From the NCBI GenBank assembly GCA_013389105.1, contig JACADZ010000078.1, positions 124,001-188,000 of the forward strand: a DNA stretch of 64,000 bases. Direction: 5' to 3'. This document shows positions 6,358-17,731 of the stretch, one piece after another; within the stretch, counting starts at the first letter, position 1, and the number at the start of each line of letters is the position of its first letter. A model generated the notes under the pieces. It was not told where the DNA came from. It searched no databases and saw only the letters and a list, made by a program, of their open reading frames with translations. Both the position numbers and the translations under genes were made by a program. This DNA comes from Parvularculaceae bacterium (GTDB lineage: Bacteria > Pseudomonadota > Alphaproteobacteria > Caulobacterales > Parvularculaceae).

Positions 6358-7272
6358 ATGCCCCGCATCTCAGACATCGGCCTTCAGCACATTCTCCTTC
6401 AGAGCTTCCAGCGCGCGCAGGGTGCGGCGCAGGAGCGGCAGATCCAGCTGGCGACCGGCAAAGTCTCCTCAAGCTATGGCGGCCTTGAACGCGCCGCAGA
6501 GCTCCTCGCCGCCGAAGGCGTGCTGGCGCGCGCCAGCGCCTATGACGGCGCCGCCAAGACGGCCCTCGCTCGACTCCAGACGCAGGAGGCGGGCATGAGA
6601 ACGGTCGCCGACGCAGTCGCGCTTATCCGGGAGCGGATGGTTCAGGCGCTCGCGACCGGATCTTCCGAACTGCTCGTTCCCGAAGTCGAGACCGCCGCGG
6701 GACGCGTGATCGCCGGCCTCAACTCCAGACTCGGCGGCGTCTACGTGTTCGGCGGCGCCGACGGGACGTCGCCGCCGCTGGCCGCCCGCTCGCTCGCCGA
6801 TTTCGGCGCGGCGTCCGATACGGACGATCTTTTCCTCGACGCGGCGCGCGTGCGCCTGCCGGTCGAAGAAGGCGTTTCCGTCGATGGCGGCGCGACGGCG
6901 CTTGAGATCGGGGGCGCGATCGCCGCCGAACTGAAGGATCTCGCCAACGCGGAAGTCGCGCTCGGGCCCTTCAGCGGCGAGCTGACGGCCGCACAGCGCG
7001 ATTTTCTGATCGACAAGGTCGCGCGCCTCGACGCGATCGCCGCCGACGTCTATCGCGAACTCGGGCTCAACGGCGTCGCGCAGGGGCAGGCGGAAGACGC
7101 GCGCCAGCGCAACATCCAGCGCCGCGACCTCGCCGAAATCGTCGCCGCCGACATCGAGGACGCGGACCTCGCCGAGGTCGTCGCGCGACTCAATCAGGAC
7201 CGCCTCGCCGTCGAGGCCGCGGCGCGGTCGCTCAGCGTCGCGACCGAGCTTTCGCTGCTCAACTATTTGTAG
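6358..7272 (+). CDS. flgL: Flagellar hook-associated protein 3 (FlgL)
   Basis: 304 residues, the usual alphaproteobacterial length. FlgL is the second hook-filament junction protein and belongs to the flagellin fold. The N-terminal helix region (MPRISDIGLQHILLQSFQRA, then QIQLATGKVSSSYGG) and C-terminal helix (VVARLNQDRLAVEAAARSL) are flagellin-like. VYVFGGADGTSPPL sits at the start of the variable domain. The ATG follows the flgK stop by four bases, so the pair is one operon. It is convergent with the sulfotransferase gene, five bases away. Confidence 0.93.
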   Translation: MPRISDIGLQHILLQSFQRAQGAAQERQIQLATGKVSSSYGGLERAAELLAAEGVLARASAYDGAAKTALARLQTQEAGMRTVADAVALIRERMVQALATGSSELLVPEVETAAGRVIAGLNSRLGGVYVFGGADGTSPPLAARSLADFGAASDTDDLFLDAARVRLPVEEGVSVDGGATALEIGGAIAAELKDLANAEVALGPFSGELTAAQRDFLIDKVARLDAIAADVYRELGLNGVAQGQAEDARQRNIQRRDLAEIVAADIEDADLAEVVARLNQDRLAVEAAARSLSVATELSLLNYL

Positions 7273-11026: not shown

Positions 11027-12058
11027 TCAAAGTCGCGACATGGCCGCGACGATGCGATCAGACTCAGCGATGGGAGGCAGCGCGTTGAGCGCTTCCTGAA
11101 ACAGCGCTTCGGCCTCGGCGCGGGCGCCCTTTCTGGCCGAGATCAGCGCGCGGCCGACGAGGGCCTCGTAGTTGTCGGGCGTATAGGCGAGGAGGCGTTC
11201 GAAAACACCCTCGGCGGCGGCGAGATCCCCGCGGATCGCCTCGCAGAAGCCTATATCGACCATGGCGTCCAGCGCCCAGGCGTCCGCCTTGAGCTTGGCG
11301 TCGGCGGTCGCGCATTCGGACGCGGAGAAATTCCGTCCGAGGATCTGCGCGGCCTCAAGTCCAATGTCGACGCGCGGCCCCAGCAGCGATGCAGCCCGCT
11401 GTCTGTCGAGGACGAGCCGTGGACCGTCCTGAAGCGACGGGCGATCCAGCGTCGGGCGTCGGGCCGCCGCGGGCGGCGAGAGGCGTTCCGGCGGCGCGAG
11501 GCTGGCGAAGACGAGCTTTTCCTCGCCCGGCGCTTCGCGCAGGACCGGCCCGGCGTGCCCGAGCATGGGCGGCGGCTTTGCGGCCGAGTCCGGTTGAGGC
11601 GCGGCGGCGATCTCCTCGTCAAACTCGATGTCGATGCAGGAAGCAGGCGCTTCATCAACGACGCAACGCTTGATCGAGGACGCGACGATCGGCTTCGACC
11701 CCTTGACGGTCAGCTCCGCGCCGCCGGGCTCCGCCCTGAACACGAGACGCTGCGCGTTATTCGCCCGACCCTTCAGGTCGACCTCGAGGTCGTCGGCGAC
11801 TCCCGGCACGAAATAGACCCCGCTCGCGCGCGCGCCGACCCGGCAGTCCTCTCGACAGACGATCACGACGCGCGTCAGCTTGCCTCGTTCGCCGATCTGA
11901 ACGTCGGAGATGGCGTTCGCCGGGCGACTCAGACTGGCGACGCCTTGCGCGGCTGCGCCGGCCGCCGCAAAGGCGATGACGGCGAGCGCCGGAGACAGGG
12001 GCGCCAGCGGCAAAAGGCGGCGGAACATCTGCGTCGTTTTCCAGACGGAACTACGCAT
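11027..12058 (-). CDS. Exported TPR protein with AMIN-like N-terminal domain
   Basis: 343 residues. A signal peptide lies within residues 1-38 (RLLPLAPLSPALAVIAFAAA). A beta-rich segment follows (ISDVQIGERGKLTRVVIVC, then VDLKGRANNAQRLVFRAE) that resembles AMIN-type domains, with several Cys. A low-complexity linker precedes a C-terminal TPR pair (LAAAEGVFERLLAYTPDNYE). Function is unknown; a periplasmic, wall-associated location is inferred. Start codons at 12058 and 12028 (MFRRLL) are both possible and neither has a convincing ribosome binding site. It is divergent from the methyltransferase gene. Confidence 0.72.
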   Translation of the reverse strand: MRSSVWKTTQMFRRLLPLAPLSPALAVIAFAAAGAAAQGVASLSRPANAISDVQIGERGKLTRVVIVCREDCRVGARASGVYFVPGVADDLEVDLKGRANNAQRLVFRAEPGGAELTVKGSKPIVASSIKRCVVDEAPASCIDIEFDEEIAAAPQPDSAAKPPPMLGHAGPVLREAPGEEKLVFASLAPPERLSPPAAARRPTLDRPSLQDGPRLVLDRQRAASLLGPRVDIGLEAAQILGRNFSASECATADAKLKADAWALDAMVDIGFCEAIRGDLAAAEGVFERLLAYTPDNYEALVGRALISARKGARAEAEALFQEALNALPPIAESDRIVAAMSRL

Positions 12059-12130
12059 TGGACGTTCTAGGGAGTCGGCGAAACGGTCAACGCATTGCCG
12101 AGCGCGGTTCGAATCGGAGAGAGTGAAGTC

Positions 12131-13261
12131 ATGGCCGCGTTGACCTTTCTTGAGTTCTTCGCCGGCGGCGGGCTGGCGCGGCTGGGGCTCGGCGCGGGCT
12201 GGCGCTGCCTTTTCGCCAATGACGTCGATCCGCGAAAATGCGCCGCTTACCGCGAGAATTTCGGCCCCGAGCATCTGGTCGAGGCCGACATCGCGCGGCT
12301 TGGAGTTCGCGATCTGCCGAGCGTCGCGGCGGATCTCGCCTGGGCGTCCTTTCCCTGCCAGGATCTTTCGCTGGCCGGCGCGCGCGGCGGCCTGTCCGGC
12401 GCGAGATCCGGGACGTTTTTCGCGTTTGCGCGCCTGATGGCGGATCTGAAGACGGCCGGTCACGCACCGAGGACCGTTGTCGTCGAGAATGTGACCGGAC
12501 TCCTTACCTCCAAAGGCGGCGCGGACTTCGCCGCCGTCGCCGACGAAATCGCCGGCCTCGGGTTCCGGCTTTCGGCGATTGTCTTGAACGCAAGCTCCTT
12601 CGTGCCCCAGTCCAGACCGCGCCTCTTCATCTTCGGCTTTTCACACGACGCGCTCCCGATTTTTTCTGCGGCGCCCCTGCGCGGCGAGGCGGCGCCGCCC
12701 GCGCTCCTTGGCGCCGTGGCGCGGCTGTCGCCTCGCGCGGCGAGATCATGGCGATGGCTCGCAGCCGAGCCGCCGGCCTCCGTCGCGCGCTGGACTGAGC
12801 TACGTGACCTTGTGGATCTTGACTCCCCCGACTGGTCGGCCGATCGCGGGCAACGGGCCCTGGCGATGATGAGCGCCCGGCAGCGCGCCGCCGTCACAAG
12901 CCTTATCGACCGCGGTGAGAGCCGGGTGGGCGCCGCATTCTTCCGTGTCCGGCGCGAAGACGGCCGGCGCGTTCAGAGACTCGAGGCTCGTTTTGACGGG
13001 CTGGCGGGGTGGCTGCGCACCCCGGCCGGCGGCTCCTCGCGGCAACTGCTCCTCATGATCGAAGGTGAGGCCGTGCGGGCGCGGCGCCTCACGCCGAGGG
13101 AAGCCGCGCGTCTGATGGGGGCGCCTGACGCCTACCGGCTTCCGGTCGGCGCGACGGACGCCCTTAAGCTCATGGGCGACGGCGTTGCGCCGCCGGTCGT
13201 CCGCTGGATCGCAGACCGCATTCTTGAACCGGCGCTGTTGGCGCGCGCGGCGGCGGCGTGA
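12131..13261 (+). CDS. dcm: DNA cytosine-C5 methyltransferase
   Basis: 376 residues. The C5-methyltransferase motifs occur in order: FFAGGGLARLGLGAG (I, SAM binding), SFPCQDLSLAGARGG (IV, catalytic Cys), VVVENVTGLL (VI), VPQSRPRLFIFG (VIII), and near the C-terminus LTPREAARLMGAPDAY and KLMGDGVAPPVV (IX-X). The recognition sequence lies in the variable region at about 225-315 and cannot be read off. I chose the ATG at 12131; an in-frame start at 12095 adds 12 residues before motif I. Its stop overlaps the vsr start (GTGA). No restriction endonuclease lies nearby. Confidence 0.93.
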   Translation: MAALTFLEFFAGGGLARLGLGAGWRCLFANDVDPRKCAAYRENFGPEHLVEADIARLGVRDLPSVAADLAWASFPCQDLSLAGARGGLSGARSGTFFAFARLMADLKTAGHAPRTVVVENVTGLLTSKGGADFAAVADEIAGLGFRLSAIVLNASSFVPQSRPRLFIFGFSHDALPIFSAAPLRGEAAPPALLGAVARLSPRAARSWRWLAAEPPASVARWTELRDLVDLDSPDWSADRGQRALAMMSARQRAAVTSLIDRGESRVGAAFFRVRREDGRRVQRLEARFDGLAGWLRTPAGGSSRQLLLMIEGEAVRARRLTPREAARLMGAPDAYRLPVGATDALKLMGDGVAPPVVRWIADRILEPALLARAAAA

Positions 13262-13683
13262 GGCGCCGGACCGACGTCTTTTCGCCTGAAAAGCGCTCCG
13301 AGGTGATGCGTGCGGTGAAGAGCGCGAATACCGGGCCGGAAATCGCGTTGCGCCGCGCGCTGTGCGCGCGCGGCCTGCGCTACCGGCTGCACGGAGCCCT
13401 GCCCGGCCGGCCGGATCTCGTCTTCGCGCGGGCGAGGTCCGTCATTTTCGTGCACGGATGTTTCTGGCACGGGCATGACTGCCCGCGCGGGCGGCGCCTG
13501 CCGAAGGCCAACGCCGCCTATTGGCGGGCCAAGATCGCGCGCAACCGCGCGCGCGACAGGAAAGCGCTTGTTGACTTGAACCGCCTCGGCTGGCGCGCCC
13601 TCGTCTTGTGGGAGTGCGAACTCAAGGCTATTGACCGCGCCGCACGGAAGGCGGCGGCATGGCTGTCGAGAGGAGCGACGTGA
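13258..13683 (+). CDS. vsr: Very short patch repair endonuclease (Vsr)
   Basis: 141 residues with a GTG start overlapping the TGA of the methyltransferase gene. Vsr nicks next to T:G mismatches left by deamination of 5-methylcytosine. The family start is clear (RTDVFSPEKRSEVMRAVKSA and TGPEIALRRALCARGLRYRL), followed by GRPDLVFARARSVIFVHGCF with the catalytic Asp and WHGHDCPRGRRLP with the zinc-binding His/Cys. The coupling guarantees co-production with the methyltransferase whose mutagenic by-product it corrects. Confidence 0.93.
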   Translation: MRRRTDVFSPEKRSEVMRAVKSANTGPEIALRRALCARGLRYRLHGALPGRPDLVFARARSVIFVHGCFWHGHDCPRGRRLPKANAAYWRAKIARNRARDRKALVDLNRLGWRALVLWECELKAIDRAARKAAAWLSRGAT

Positions 13684-13961
13684 GCGACGACATACGGCAT
13701 CAGGCCGACGGAACGGGCGGCCGGTTCCACATTCCCGTCGAGGGCGGCGACGCGGAAGTGACCTACCGGCTCGGGGGCGGCGTCATGATCATCGACCGCA
13801 CTTTTGTGCCGCCGCCGGCGCGCGGCGGCGACTTCGCCATGCGCCTCGTGAGGCGCGCTGTGGAAGAGGCCGCCGCACGCGGCTTCAAGGTTGATCCGCG
13901 CTGCTCCTATGTCGCTCGGGTCTTCGACTTCATGCCCGAATGGGCGGCCTTGAGGGCCTGA
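13680..13961 (+). CDS. Small GNAT-type acetyltransferase (YjdJ-like)
   Basis: 93 residues from a GTG at 13680 that overlaps the vsr stop (GTGA) and has AGGAG at 13671-13675. It is the short GNAT family with HIPVEGGDAEVTYRLGGG, VPPPARGGDFAMRLVRRAVE and CSYVARVFDFMPEW, typical of the YjdJ/YidJ type. The acetyl acceptor is unknown. A longer ATG start (13659) would overlap vsr by 25 bases and lacks the ribosome binding site. The gene is the third member of the overlapping methyltransferase-vsr chain, which may be only positional. Confidence 0.82.
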   Translation: MSDDIRHQADGTGGRFHIPVEGGDAEVTYRLGGGVMIIDRTFVPPPARGGDFAMRLVRRAVEEAAARGFKVDPRCSYVARVFDFMPEWAALRA

Positions 13962-13971
13962 AGCTCAGGCC
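13955..13971. terminator. Inverted repeat across two convergent stop codons
   Basis: GGCCTGA-AGC-TCAGGCC forms a perfect 7-base stem with a 3-base loop, covering the stop of the GNAT gene and reaching the stop of the DUF885 gene. There is no T-run, so it is a possible bidirectional terminator or 3'-end stabiliser only. Confidence 0.4.
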
Positions 13972-15857
13972 GCCTTCTTGGACGCGATCCACTCGTCGAT
14001 CCGCCGCTCAAGAATGCCGAGCGGCAGCGCCCCGCCGCCTAGAACTGCGTCGTGGAAGCCGCGGATGTCGAACTTGTCGCCGAGCGCTTCCTGCGCTTTC
14101 GTCCGCAATTCCAGAATCTTCAGCATGCCGATTTTGTAGCCGGTCGCCTGCCCCGGCCACACGATGTAACGCCGGACTTCAGAGCGGATCTGCCCCTCGG
14201 CCGCAGGCGAATTGGCCATGAAGTAGGCGACGGCCTGCTCTTCGGTCCACTCCTTGTCATGCACGCCGGTATCGACGACGAGGCGGATGGCGCGCCAGAT
14301 CTCCGTCGTGAGCCGCCCGAAATCCGAATACGGATCGGCATACGCGCCCATCTCCTTGGCCAGCAGCTCGGAGTAAAGCCCCCAGCCTTCGGAATAGGCG
14401 GTGAAGTCGGCCTGGGTGCGGAACTTCGGCACGCCGGTCAGCTCCTGCGCGATCGAAATCTGCATGTGATGGCCGGGATTGCCCTCGTGATAGGCGATGA
14501 CCTCGAGCTGAGGGATCGGCATCGCGTTCATGTCGGACAGATGTGCGTAGTAGACTCCGGGGCGGGAGCCGTCCGGCGTTCCTGCGAAGTAATGCTGCGC
14601 TGCGCCCGGCTGCTCCCGAAACGCCTCCACGCGCTTCACGACGAGACCGGCCTTCGGCAGGAGCCCGAAATATTCGGGCAGCTTGCCTTTGATGAACGCG
14701 AGCTTCTCGTCCGCCGCTTTGATGTAGGCCGCGCGACCTTCGTCCGTGTTCGGAAAATAAAACTGCTTGTCCTCCCTCACGAACTTGAAAAAGTCCTCGA
14801 GCGAGCCCTTGAAGCCGACCTTCTCCTTGATCGACTCCATTTCGCCCCGGATGCGGGCGACCTCGTCGAGGCCGAGCTGATGCACTTCAGCCGCCGTCAT
14901 GTCGGTGGTCGTCGTCGCGGCGAGACGCTCTTGGTAGAATTCGCGGCCCCGCGGCAGCTTCCAGACGCCCGTCGCGATCTTGTCGGCGTTCGCCTTGTCG
15001 GCTTCGAACCAGTCGGCCAACGCCTGATAGGAAGGTCCGATCTTTTCGACGAGCGCGTTCCGCGCGCCGTTGCGCAGCTCCTCGGCCTTCGTCGCGTCGA
15101 TTTTGCCGTCTTTGAGGAGCGTGTCGATCTCGCTGTTGACGTCGGCCCAGATCGGACTGTCGCCGGTCCCCGCGAAGGGCGCCCCGGTGATGATGGCGCG
15201 CGCCTGCTCGATGACGCCTTCGTAGGCGAACAGCGGCGGGCGCACGCCTTCAGCGGCGCCGGCTTTCGCCCGGTCGAGGAGTTGATCGATCCCGCGCGCG
15301 ACGCCGGCGATACGCGCAATATAAGCCTCCATGTCCGCGCCGCTCTCGACTTTATGGAAGGCGATCAGGAACTGCGGCAGGAACGCCTGCGGCCCCTGCA
15401 TCTGCGTGAAGACGTATTGCTGTCGGCGGAACGCGTCCGCCTTCGCCGCTTGATCGTACTGGTAGATCCACAGGTCGTACGAAGTCTGCGCCTCGGGAGA
15501 CAGCTTGGCGCGGTCGAAGCCCGCCTTCAGTTCATCGACGGTCGCCTTTCGCCAGGCGAGTTGCGCATCTTCGCCGGCCTCGGAAAGATCGTCGATCTTG
15601 TCGTAATCCTTCTTGTCGCCGAGGAAGGTCCGGTGGATCGGCGAGAAGTCGAGCTCCTCCTCGTACTTTGCATCGAACCACGCGCCGAGCCGCTGCGATT
15701 CTGCAGCGATCTCCTCCGCCGTGGGCGCGACCGGCGCGGCAGGCGCCGCCGCTTCGGGGGCCGCGGCCGGCGCCTTGGCTTCCCGCTTTCCGCAGGCGGC
15801 GATCGACACGGACGCGAGCAGAACGAGCGTCAACCGACGCAGGTGAGGACGGCGCAT
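13965..15857 (-). CDS. DUF885 family lipoprotein (putative metallopeptidase-like)
   Basis: About 630 residues. It starts MRRPHLRRLTLVLLASVS with lipobox IAAC, followed by an Ala/Pro-rich linker, then the DUF885 fold. Near the C-terminal third it has VIAYHEGNPGHHMQISI, an HExxPGHH variant of the zinc-peptidase helix that marks this family, and TAYSEGWGLYSELL downstream. Members are predicted extracytoplasmic peptidases; no substrate is known. I chose the ATG at 15857 because it gives the lipoprotein signal; an in-frame 15932 start adds an arginine-rich stretch. Confidence 0.88.
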   Translation of the reverse strand: MRRPHLRRLTLVLLASVSIAACGKREAKAPAAAPEAAAPAAPVAPTAEEIAAESQRLGAWFDAKYEEELDFSPIHRTFLGDKKDYDKIDDLSEAGEDAQLAWRKATVDELKAGFDRAKLSPEAQTSYDLWIYQYDQAAKADAFRRQQYVFTQMQGPQAFLPQFLIAFHKVESGADMEAYIARIAGVARGIDQLLDRAKAGAAEGVRPPLFAYEGVIEQARAIITGAPFAGTGDSPIWADVNSEIDTLLKDGKIDATKAEELRNGARNALVEKIGPSYQALADWFEADKANADKIATGVWKLPRGREFYQERLAATTTTDMTAAEVHQLGLDEVARIRGEMESIKEKVGFKGSLEDFFKFVREDKQFYFPNTDEGRAAYIKAADEKLAFIKGKLPEYFGLLPKAGLVVKRVEAFREQPGAAQHYFAGTPDGSRPGVYYAHLSDMNAMPIPQLEVIAYHEGNPGHHMQISIAQELTGVPKFRTQADFTAYSEGWGLYSELLAKEMGAYADPYSDFGRLTTEIWRAIRLVVDTGVHDKEWTEEQAVAYFMANSPAAEGQIRSEVRRYIVWPGQATGYKIGMLKILELRTKAQEALGDKFDIRGFHDAVLGGGALPLGILERRIDEWIASKKAA

Positions 15858-15949
15858 AGCGTGGGTTCCCGAATAATGGCGGCCGCGCCGCCGGTCGGGC
15901 CGGAAGCTACGACCGATTCCGCGCGCGGGCAAACGGGCAGTCCGTTGTT

Positions 15950-17731
15950 TCAGAACGCCTCAGCCGGAAGCGCCATCATGGCGCCGGCCCCGGACTTCAG
16001 CTTCGCAAGGTGTGACTTCGCGTCCGGCAGGATGCGTTCGAGGAAATAGCGCCCGGTCGTCAGCTTGTTGTCGTAAAAGGGATCCTCTCCCCGCTTTTCG
16101 ATCGCCACCTTCGCCATGCGCGCCCAGCCCTCGGCAAGCGCGACCAACGCGAACAGGTGCAGGAGGTCCATCGACGCCGCGCCGGCATTGTCGAAATTCG
16201 ACATCGCGTTCCCGCCAAGCCACGCGATCGCCTCGCCGAGGTCCGATTTCGCGGAGGCGAGGCCGTCCAGGAACGGCGCCAACCCGGCGACGCCCGCGCT
16301 TTCGGCGATGAAGCCGTCGATATCCGCGAACCACGTCGTCCAGGCGCGGCCGCCGTCCTTCATCAGCTTGCGGCCGACGAGATCGAGCGCCTGGATGCCG
16401 TTGGCGCCCTCATAGATCATCGCGATTCGAGCGTCGCGGACGAACTGCTCCATACCCCACTCGGTGATGTAGCCGTGGCCGCCGAGAACCTGCTGCGCGT
16501 TCGACGCCTGCCAGTAGCCCTTCTCGGTGAGGTAGGCCTTCAGCACCGGCGTCATCAAGCCGAGATAATCATCGGCCTTCTGGCGGTCGGACTCGCTCGA
16601 CGACCGGCGATGCATGTCGGCCTGCAGCGCCGCCGAATACATCCAGGCGCGACCGCCCTCGATGGTCGCGCGCTGATCCATCAGCATGCGGCGCACATCC
16701 GGATGCACGATGATCGGATCGGCGGGCTTTCCAGGATTCTTCGGCCCGGTCAGCGACCGACCTTGAAGACGGTCCCTCGCATAGGACGCGGCGTTCTGGT
16801 AGGCGACCTCTGACACGGCGAGACCCTGCAGCGCGACGCCGAGGCGCGCCTCGTTCATCATGGTGAACATGGCCTTGAGGCCCTTGTTCTCCTCGCCGAG
16901 CAGATACCCGGTCGCCTCGTCATAATTCATCACGCAGGTCGAGTTGGCGTGGATGCCCATCTTCTCCTCGATCTTGCCGCACGAAACCCCGTTGCGGCGA
17001 CCGAGAGTTCCGTCGCTGTTGATATGGAATTTCGGCACAATGAAAAGTGAAATGCCCTTTACGCCTTCGGGAGCGCCTTCGATCCGGGCAAGGACGAGAT
17101 GGATGATGTTGCTCGTCAGATCGTGTTCGCCCGCGGAAATGAATATCTTCTGTCCAGACACAAGATAGGTCCCGTCCGCCTGCCGGACGGCCTTGGCGCG
17201 CAGAAGGCCAAGGTCGGTCCCGCAATGGGGTTCCGTCAGGTTCATGGTCCCGCCCCATTCGCCGGCGATCATCTTCGGCAGGTAGAAGCGCTTCTGCTCG
17301 GGCGTGCCGTGCGCCTCGATCGTCGAGGCGGCGCCCCGGGCAAGGCCCGGATACATCGCGAAGGCCATGTTGGCCGCCGACAACATCTCGCTGACGGCGA
17401 CGCCGACAACATAAGGCAGCCCCTGGCCTCCCCACTCTGGATCCGCCCCGAGCCCCTGCCAGCCCCCTTGCCTGTAGGCGGCGTAAGCTTCCCGGAAGCC
17501 TTTGGGCGTTGTCACCGAGCCGTCAGGGTGGCGCCGGCACCCTTCGCGATCGCCTGAGTGGTTGATGGGGTGAAGCACTTCACCGGCCAGTTTGGCGCCT
17601 TCCTCGAGGATCGCATCGATCACATCGACGGAGGCGTCGGCGAATCCGGGAAGATTGGAAAAGCGGCTGATCTGCAAAACCTCGTGCAGTAGGAACTGCA
17701 TGTCGCGAACGGGGGCGGCGTAGTGGGTCAT
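15950..17731 (-). CDS. Acyl-CoA dehydrogenase, DmdC-like long form
   Basis: 593 residues, the long acyl-CoA dehydrogenase type with an extra N-terminal part (MTHYAAPVRDMQFLLHEVLQ) and a C-terminal domain. MNLTEPHCGTDLGLLRAKAV is a FAD-binding segment and QVLGGHGYITEWGMEQFVRD and AMIYEGANGIQALDLVGRK are family signatures, the latter with the expected catalytic Glu. The subclass includes DmdC (3-methylmercaptopropionyl-CoA dehydrogenase) and broad fatty acyl-CoA dehydrogenases; sequence reading alone cannot separate them. AGGATG precedes the ATG. It stands alone, not in an operon with the DmdB-like ligase at 33492. Confidence 0.9.
   Translation of the reverse strand: MTHYAAPVRDMQFLLHEVLQISRFSNLPGFADASVDVIDAILEEGAKLAGEVLHPINHSGDREGCRRHPDGSVTTPKGFREAYAAYRQGGWQGLGADPEWGGQGLPYVVGVAVSEMLSAANMAFAMYPGLARGAASTIEAHGTPEQKRFYLPKMIAGEWGGTMNLTEPHCGTDLGLLRAKAVRQADGTYLVSGQKIFISAGEHDLTSNIIHLVLARIEGAPEGVKGISLFIVPKFHINSDGTLGRRNGVSCGKIEEKMGIHANSTCVMNYDEATGYLLGEENKGLKAMFTMMNEARLGVALQGLAVSEVAYQNAASYARDRLQGRSLTGPKNPGKPADPIIVHPDVRRMLMDQRATIEGGRAWMYSAALQADMHRRSSSESDRQKADDYLGLMTPVLKAYLTEKGYWQASNAQQVLGGHGYITEWGMEQFVRDARIAMIYEGANGIQALDLVGRKLMKDGGRAWTTWFADIDGFIAESAGVAGLAPFLDGLASAKSDLGEAIAWLGGNAMSNFDNAGAASMDLLHLFALVALAEGWARMAKVAIEKRGEDPFYDNKLTTGRYFLERILPDAKSHLAKLKSGAGAMMALPAEAF

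Follow-up and report, generated by a model that had tools for sequence, protein, structure and literature searches.

In the Dcm-Vsr system of E. coli, the genes for a C5 methyltransferase and for Vsr form an operon, in that order (PMC12907096). According to the same source, solitary cytosine methyltransferases are prevalent in the Alphaproteobacteria, their role being essentially unknown. Cells of Caulobacter crescentus without the solitary methyltransferase ScmA are outcompeted there, and both the SOS response and the fitness loss depend on the Vsr-like protein VsrA, so that ScmA loss is costly through a Vsr-like nuclease, which was proposed to hold the methyltransferase in place (PMC12907096). 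An m5C methyltransferase acting on GGCGCC, CCNA_03741 of C. crescentus and Bresu_0174 of Brevundimonas, is described as having no partner nuclease and as conserved between these two Caulobacteraceae genera (PMC7987155). A trio of methyltransferase, DUF4928 protein and Vsr is mentioned for SGI1-related elements (PMC9035990), and the Pseudomonas plasmid pNECK1 carries the same trio with its genes touching.

The locus described here lies in a window, that is, the whole stretch of DNA analysed, of 64,000 nucleotides from a Parvularculaceae bacterium (assembly GCA_013389105.1, contig JACADZ010000078.1, positions 124,001 to 188,000). As in E. coli, a C5 methyltransferase gene is followed by vsr, and the Vsr is identical to that of E. 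coli at 52 of 124 aligned residues. The methyltransferase, unlike Dcm, belongs to another subgroup, scoring 51.6 bits with PRK10458 against a cut-off of 710, and orthology with E. coli Dcm was rejected on this ground. The likeness to ScmA/VsrA is one of description: both loci have an alphaproteobacterial C5 methyltransferase that is solitary, in the window probably so, whereas VsrA is of the DUF559 type and unlinked to scmA, and the window has a classical Vsr gene overlapping that of the methyltransferase (PMC12907096). The cassettes of pNECK1 and of the SGI1-related elements (PMC9035990) resemble the window in having a Vsr gene after a methyltransferase from this family (52% identity) but, unlike the window, carry DUF4928 between the two. 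CCNA_03741/Bresu_0174 is perhaps the ortholog of the window methyltransferase, a guess made from distribution and not from sequence. In the literature searched, no paper was found on a methyltransferase-Vsr pair in Parvularculaceae or on a Vsr-methyltransferase-acetyltransferase operon.

The evidence presented below indicates that the locus probably holds a domesticated, locus-bound methyltransferase-Vsr unit of Dcm-Vsr-like type, related to mobile restriction-modification-Vsr cassettes.

Gene Organization of the Locus

Three genes were found in a row on the + strand. The first (12131..13261, ATG start) encodes a C5-cytosine DNA methyltransferase of 376 aa, probably solitary (PF00145, 4.7e-46; TIGR00675 above cut-off), the second (13258..13683, GTG start) a Vsr-family T:G mismatch endonuclease of 141 aa (PF03852, 3.9e-31), and the third (13680..13961, GTG start) a small GNAT-like protein of 93 aa (PF14542, Acetyltransf_CG, 1.3e-20). 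The GTGA overlap that the earlier note had read at both joints was confirmed, at 13258..13261 between the methyltransferase and Vsr genes and at 13680..13683 between the Vsr and GNAT-like genes, both on the + strand. The first overlap goes beyond chance, since 26 of the 34 Parvularculaceae loci in which methyltransferase and Vsr are on one stretch also offer a −4 start; the second is available in 4 of the 16 loci that bear the GNAT-like gene.

Downstream, on the − strand, are a DUF885 gene (13965..15932; PF05960, 7e-186) and an acyl-CoA-dehydrogenase-like gene (15950..17731; PF00441, PF02770, PF02771 and PF12806), which lie outside the unit and are conserved neighbours that mark the locus by synteny. 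The upstream neighbour of the methyltransferase gene, on the opposite strand, is a gene with TPR matches. No restriction enzyme gene is therefore found beside the methyltransferase-Vsr pair, the flanks being the TPR, DUF885 and acyl-CoA-dehydrogenase genes, and here too the earlier note was right. Of the PADLOC models, DruM2 (PDLC00028) scored highest with the methyltransferase, at 385 bits, and MTase_II (PDLC03243) came next at 335 bits; the neighbours scanned beside this DruM2-scoring methyltransferase were the same three genes.

Two kinds of control site were considered. Of 38 loci, 14 have a GANTC site (CcrM-type) in the 120 bases upstream; the LexA-type site GTTC-N7-GTTC gave no match at window positions 11901-14100. 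The host genome (G000) is an assembly of 3.03 Mb in 234 contigs with 3.46% contamination.

Methyltransferase and Vsr Sequences

The methyltransferase gave a full-length match to the PF00145 profile and contains the PCQ, ENV and QxRxR motifs, which are catalytic motifs of C5 methyltransferases. In an alignment of nine rows, P75 C76 Q77 (PCQ), E119 N120 V121 (ENV) and Q160, R162 and R164 (QSRPR) were invariant. It is the product of the only PF00145 gene in the host genome.

The Vsr protein, likewise the only Vsr match in the host genome, scored above the curated TIGR00632 cut-off and had E. coli Vsr (1cw0, 2e-28) as its best PDB match. It keeps 10 of the 11 E. coli Vsr positions checked, T63 being replaced by V, and has the active-site set E25, D51, H64, H69 and D97 (E. 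coli numbering); the zinc positions of Vsr are C66, H71, C73 and C117. Judged by these residues, the methyltransferase and Vsr enzymes look intact.

Low dN/dS values in close pairs of Parvularculaceae genomes, none of them including the window's genome, place all three genes under purifying selection in relatives: 0.10-0.25 for the methyltransferase (eight pairs), 0.05-0.32 for Vsr (nine pairs) and 0.08-0.30 for the GNAT-like gene (five pairs). With a C5 methyltransferase and a Vsr encoded side by side, a single PF00145 gene and no adjacent endonuclease, the Dcm-Vsr type assignment made in the earlier note is supported as far as sequence can tell.

Methyltransferase-Vsr Pairing across the Parvularculaceae

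Parvularculaceae and Caulobacteraceae are placed together in Caulobacterales by GTDB and in two orders by NCBI. Of the 298 genomes searched in the GTDB order of the host, 164 gave a methyltransferase match at E ≤ 1e-60, and these represent 30 of 48 genera.

Within the family, 62 genomes were surveyed with cut-offs of E ≤ 1e-60 for the methyltransferase and E ≤ 1e-48 for a close Vsr. A methyltransferase match was obtained in 37 genomes, and 36 of these also had a close Vsr, a co-occurrence that does not amount to 36 independent events because the genomes are related. Among the 25 non-carriers, some of which are fragmentary assemblies, a close Vsr was found in none and a more distant one in four; one of the 25 (G033) has a partial methyltransferase. 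Both genes were on one stretch in 34 genomes, and in 32 of these 34 loci the DUF885 or the acyl-CoA-dehydrogenase gene adjoins the pair. In G047 and G048 methyltransferase and Vsr are on separate contigs, and G029 has the methyltransferase without Vsr. None of the three genes was found in 20 further loci of the family examined at the acyl-CoA-dehydrogenase gene, in stretches of 3-12 kb, that of G041 ending at a contig end. The real unit of the locus is thus the methyltransferase-Vsr pair, its genes overlapping or adjacent.

Some individual loci differ in arrangement. In G043 an opposite-strand gene of 260 codons (L144, 6050-6829) separates methyltransferase from Vsr. In G025 the two are read in a single open frame of more than 500 codons (L128, 5802-7343), which is either a true gene fusion or the result of a frameshift in the assembly. 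Eleven genomes of genus g6 share, around the locus, a conserved small ORF of some 60-90 codons that is absent from the window (L121, L122, L123, L124, L125, L126, L137, L139, L140, L142 and L143).

The GNAT-Like Gene

The third gene product scored 73.7 bits with the PF14542 profile, whose cut-off is 30, and its GNAT-like PDB matches were At1g77540 (1.7e-5) and YjdJ (0.017). Its GTG start is uncertain, since the open frame also offers an upstream ATG at 13659, which would give a protein of 100 aa. GNATs have an RGxGxA motif in which the fourth residue is usually glycine. Six of the 17 copies have glycine here, and the other 11 have D, S, N or K; the window copy has D, and acetyl-CoA binding by this protein is for this reason not to be assumed.

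The earlier note counted the GNAT-like gene as part of the unit. Such a three-gene module, in which the GNAT-like protein would tune methylation or repair by modifying the methyltransferase, Vsr or some other DNA-repair protein, is favoured by the GTGA overlap in the window, by the purifying selection on the gene in the five pairs of relatives, and by the position of the 17 strongest family matches (E ≤ 1e-18, each from a different genome), which are all at the methyltransferase-Vsr locus: 16 follow Vsr on the same strand, and that of G045 is at a contig start. The distribution of the gene argues the other way. It is present at 16 of the 34 linked loci of the family and absent at 18, and a tree of 33 methyltransferase-Vsr rows requires eight changes between presence and absence, well-supported branches making at least five of these gains or losses unavoidable. 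The 4-base overlap with Vsr is possible through GTG in the window's genome and through TTG in G003, G004 and G006, and in another four of the 16 loci the gap exceeds 400 bases (400-830), three of these four having a small opposite-strand ORF in between. Among 80 named related loci the gene occurs in two, both from Parvularculaceae. Together with the lack of the RGxGxA glycine in most copies, these observations make a three-gene module unlikely, and the GNAT-like gene is probably a separate neighbour, found at the locus in certain lineages, and no core part of the unit. To judge from the sequences, its coupling to the pair is local and dispensable.

The survey of relatives proposed in the earlier note thus bore out the chain for methyltransferase and Vsr and not for the GNAT-like gene. 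Lack of conservation of the latter, which that note had named as the observation that would speak against its reading, was found in part: the gene is kept at about half of the linked loci, and its close coupling to Vsr is not.

Nuclease-Bearing Relatives and Origin of the Unit

In relatives outside the family, the methyltransferase gene is often followed by one for a nuclease, of the DUF4928, PD-(D/E)XK-like or GIY-YIG type. A DUF4928 match was obtained in 21 of the 80 named loci, 11 with Vsr downstream and 10 without; the PD-(D/E)XK-like and the GIY-YIG proteins were found in four loci each, all eight with Vsr downstream. DUF4928 was sought by profile across the loci, and the other two labels come from reading ORFs in 18 loci, so that further loci could hide divergent PD-(D/E)XK or GIY-YIG genes; many contigs in this survey end near the methyltransferase.

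PADLOC classes both DUF4928 (PDLC03543) and the PD-(D/E)XK-like protein (PDLC03501) as type II restriction enzymes. A predicted model of DUF4928 (mean pLDDT 81.9, pTM 0.61) gave no Foldseek match at E ≤ 0.001. In a second structure comparison the first seven rows were restriction enzymes (EcoT38I, R.BspD6I2, MspJI, AspBHI and FokI); EcoT38I was aligned with Z 11.9 and rmsd 12.9 over 265 residues and with Z 8.8 and rmsd 4.1 over 142 residues, the next entry having 7.7. The model suggests that DUF4928 likely has a restriction-enzyme fold.

A tree was built from 102 methyltransferases. Excluded from it were L005, L023, L029 and L035 (methyltransferase match absent or shorter than 1,000 bases), the identical copies L032, L033, L038 and L069, and the window copies L001 and L002; L103 and L105, whose DUF4928 matches are weak, were labelled as having no nuclease. 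All 26 nuclease-linked rows fell in one half of the tree (53 rows), spread over phyla; among them, copies from Rhizobiaceae, Sphingobium and Burkholderiaceae are nearly identical. No nuclease was found for the remaining 27 of these 53 rows, which include overlapping methyltransferase-Vsr pairs of Methylopilaceae, nor for any of the 49 rows of the other half, to which the window belongs. That half comprises Parvularculaceae, Hyphomonadaceae, Caulobacteraceae and Maricaulaceae, together with records named only Alphaproteobacteria, Caulobacterales or Proteobacteria.

The methyltransferase-Vsr unit shares ancestry with the mobile methyltransferase-nuclease-Vsr cassettes. The simplest and most likely origin is a mobile cassette that would have lost its nuclease and settled in the lineage of the window. 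The opposite direction, gain of the nuclease, keeps some probability, since the tree was midpoint-rooted, the support of its deepest split (93/92) falls short of the starred level, and no nuclease was found for 27 of the 53 rows of the nuclease-bearing half either.

In locus L103, two weak DUF4928 pieces lie between methyltransferase and Vsr, from about 6176 to the Vsr gene at 6418, and this is perhaps a nuclease in the process of loss. On a Methylocystis plasmid (L274, 1988-4714) a methyltransferase of the family, a PD-(D/E)XK-like nuclease and a GIY-YIG protein are found together, with no Vsr annotated in that stretch; given this co-occurrence, the GIY-YIG protein may be an accessory protein and not the restriction enzyme.

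Search for a Nuclease Elsewhere in the Host Genome

The methyltransferase could also still belong to a restriction-modification system whose GIY-YIG nuclease is encoded elsewhere in the genome; the earlier note had pointed to an endonuclease elsewhere as evidence against its reading. The host assembly was searched for the DUF4928, PDLC03501 and GIY-YIG partner types. Neither DUF4928 nor the PDLC03501 nuclease was found in it, the positive controls being detected. For the third type, a C-terminal fragment was found (G000:C176:20163-20435), covering model positions 138-228 of 238 and showing 64% identity with residues 138-222 of the GIY-YIG protein from locus L077. An intact copy hidden by the assembly would mean that the methyltransferase is not solitary, and the GIY-YIG gene adjoins a methyltransferase of the family in all four plasmid loci read, out of 15 matched records. 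Against this, the catalytic N-terminal half of the type was not found in the host genome at E ≤ 0.1, and although 37 of the 62 family genomes carry the methyltransferase, the fragment is the only GIY-YIG match among the 62 that is better than E = 0.016. It comes, moreover, from an assembly whose 234 contigs and contamination have been given above, and may be a remnant, a gene cut at a contig end or contamination. A GIY-YIG partner encoded elsewhere is accordingly considered improbable, more so than the three-gene module.

That the pair is a non-functional remnant, drifting since nuclease loss, agrees with the lack of an adjoining nuclease but is very improbable in view of the retained catalytic residues, the low dN/dS in relatives and the presence of the methyltransferase across 30 genera.

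Target Motif

Word statistics were collected from three carriers (G000, 660,687 bases; G001, 289,222; G018, 400,000) and one non-carrier (G049, 400,000), and then from pooled loci. In the comparison of carriers with non-carriers, which differ by ancestry as well, GCCGGC seemed relatively enriched in carriers: of 68 palindromes with a length of 4 or 6 bases, it was the highest-ranking one of 6 bases, with TGCA above it. GGTGCC was depleted in carriers (rank 15 of 2,080). This depletion was rejected as evidence for GGCGCC and was attributed to general composition, since GATGCC, GTTGCC and GCTGCC were likewise depleted and CNTGCC words enriched. No clear signature of Vsr repair was seen in the statistics of the three carriers, the non-carrier and the pooled loci.

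In 31 nuclease-bearing loci, CCGCGG was the most avoided 6-base palindrome, with 129 occurrences against 259 expected. The ratio was 0.46 for loci with DUF4928, 0.45 with the GIY-YIG protein and 0.75 with the PD-(D/E)XK-like protein, and 0.72-0.85 for the sets without nuclease. Eco29kI, a GIY-YIG enzyme specific for CCGCGG, was considered as a relative but dismissed, since the identity of its methyltransferase is 27% over 198 residues and the nuclease gave no significant alignment. As motif candidates, CCGCGG and the GGCGCC reported for the possible ortholog are leads only.

Proposed Function and Significance

In the preferred reading, that of a locus-bound methyltransferase-Vsr unit, the overlapping genes would allow both proteins to be made together. 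The methyltransferase would place 5-methylcytosine in a short motif; deamination of this base to T would give a T:G mismatch, beside whose T the Vsr would nick, and resynthesis of a short patch would restore the C. Vsr might in addition stabilise the presence of the methyltransferase, as proposed for ScmA/VsrA of Caulobacter, since Vsr activity where methylation is missing may harm the chromosome. The same logic could explain why both genes are kept in nearly all carriers of the family.

A further step is more tentative. A former restriction-modification-Vsr cassette kept across many genera without its restriction enzyme could owe its persistence to Vsr acting as a threat. Cells could not then easily lose the methyltransferase, because Vsr would damage the unmethylated DNA, and the pair would form a long-lived, self-stabilising module with a repair enzyme as its building material. 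This is a possibility that we regard as doubtful, less so than the alternatives weighed above.

Among related genomes, Vsr overlaps the methyltransferase, is unlinked to it (G047, G048), is absent (G029) or is in frame with it (G025), and the relatives of the methyltransferase offer three kinds of nuclease partner. With this variation, the idea that Vsr stabilises the methyltransferase can be tested by comparison and by gene deletion, and it is in making this hypothesis testable that the unit matters.
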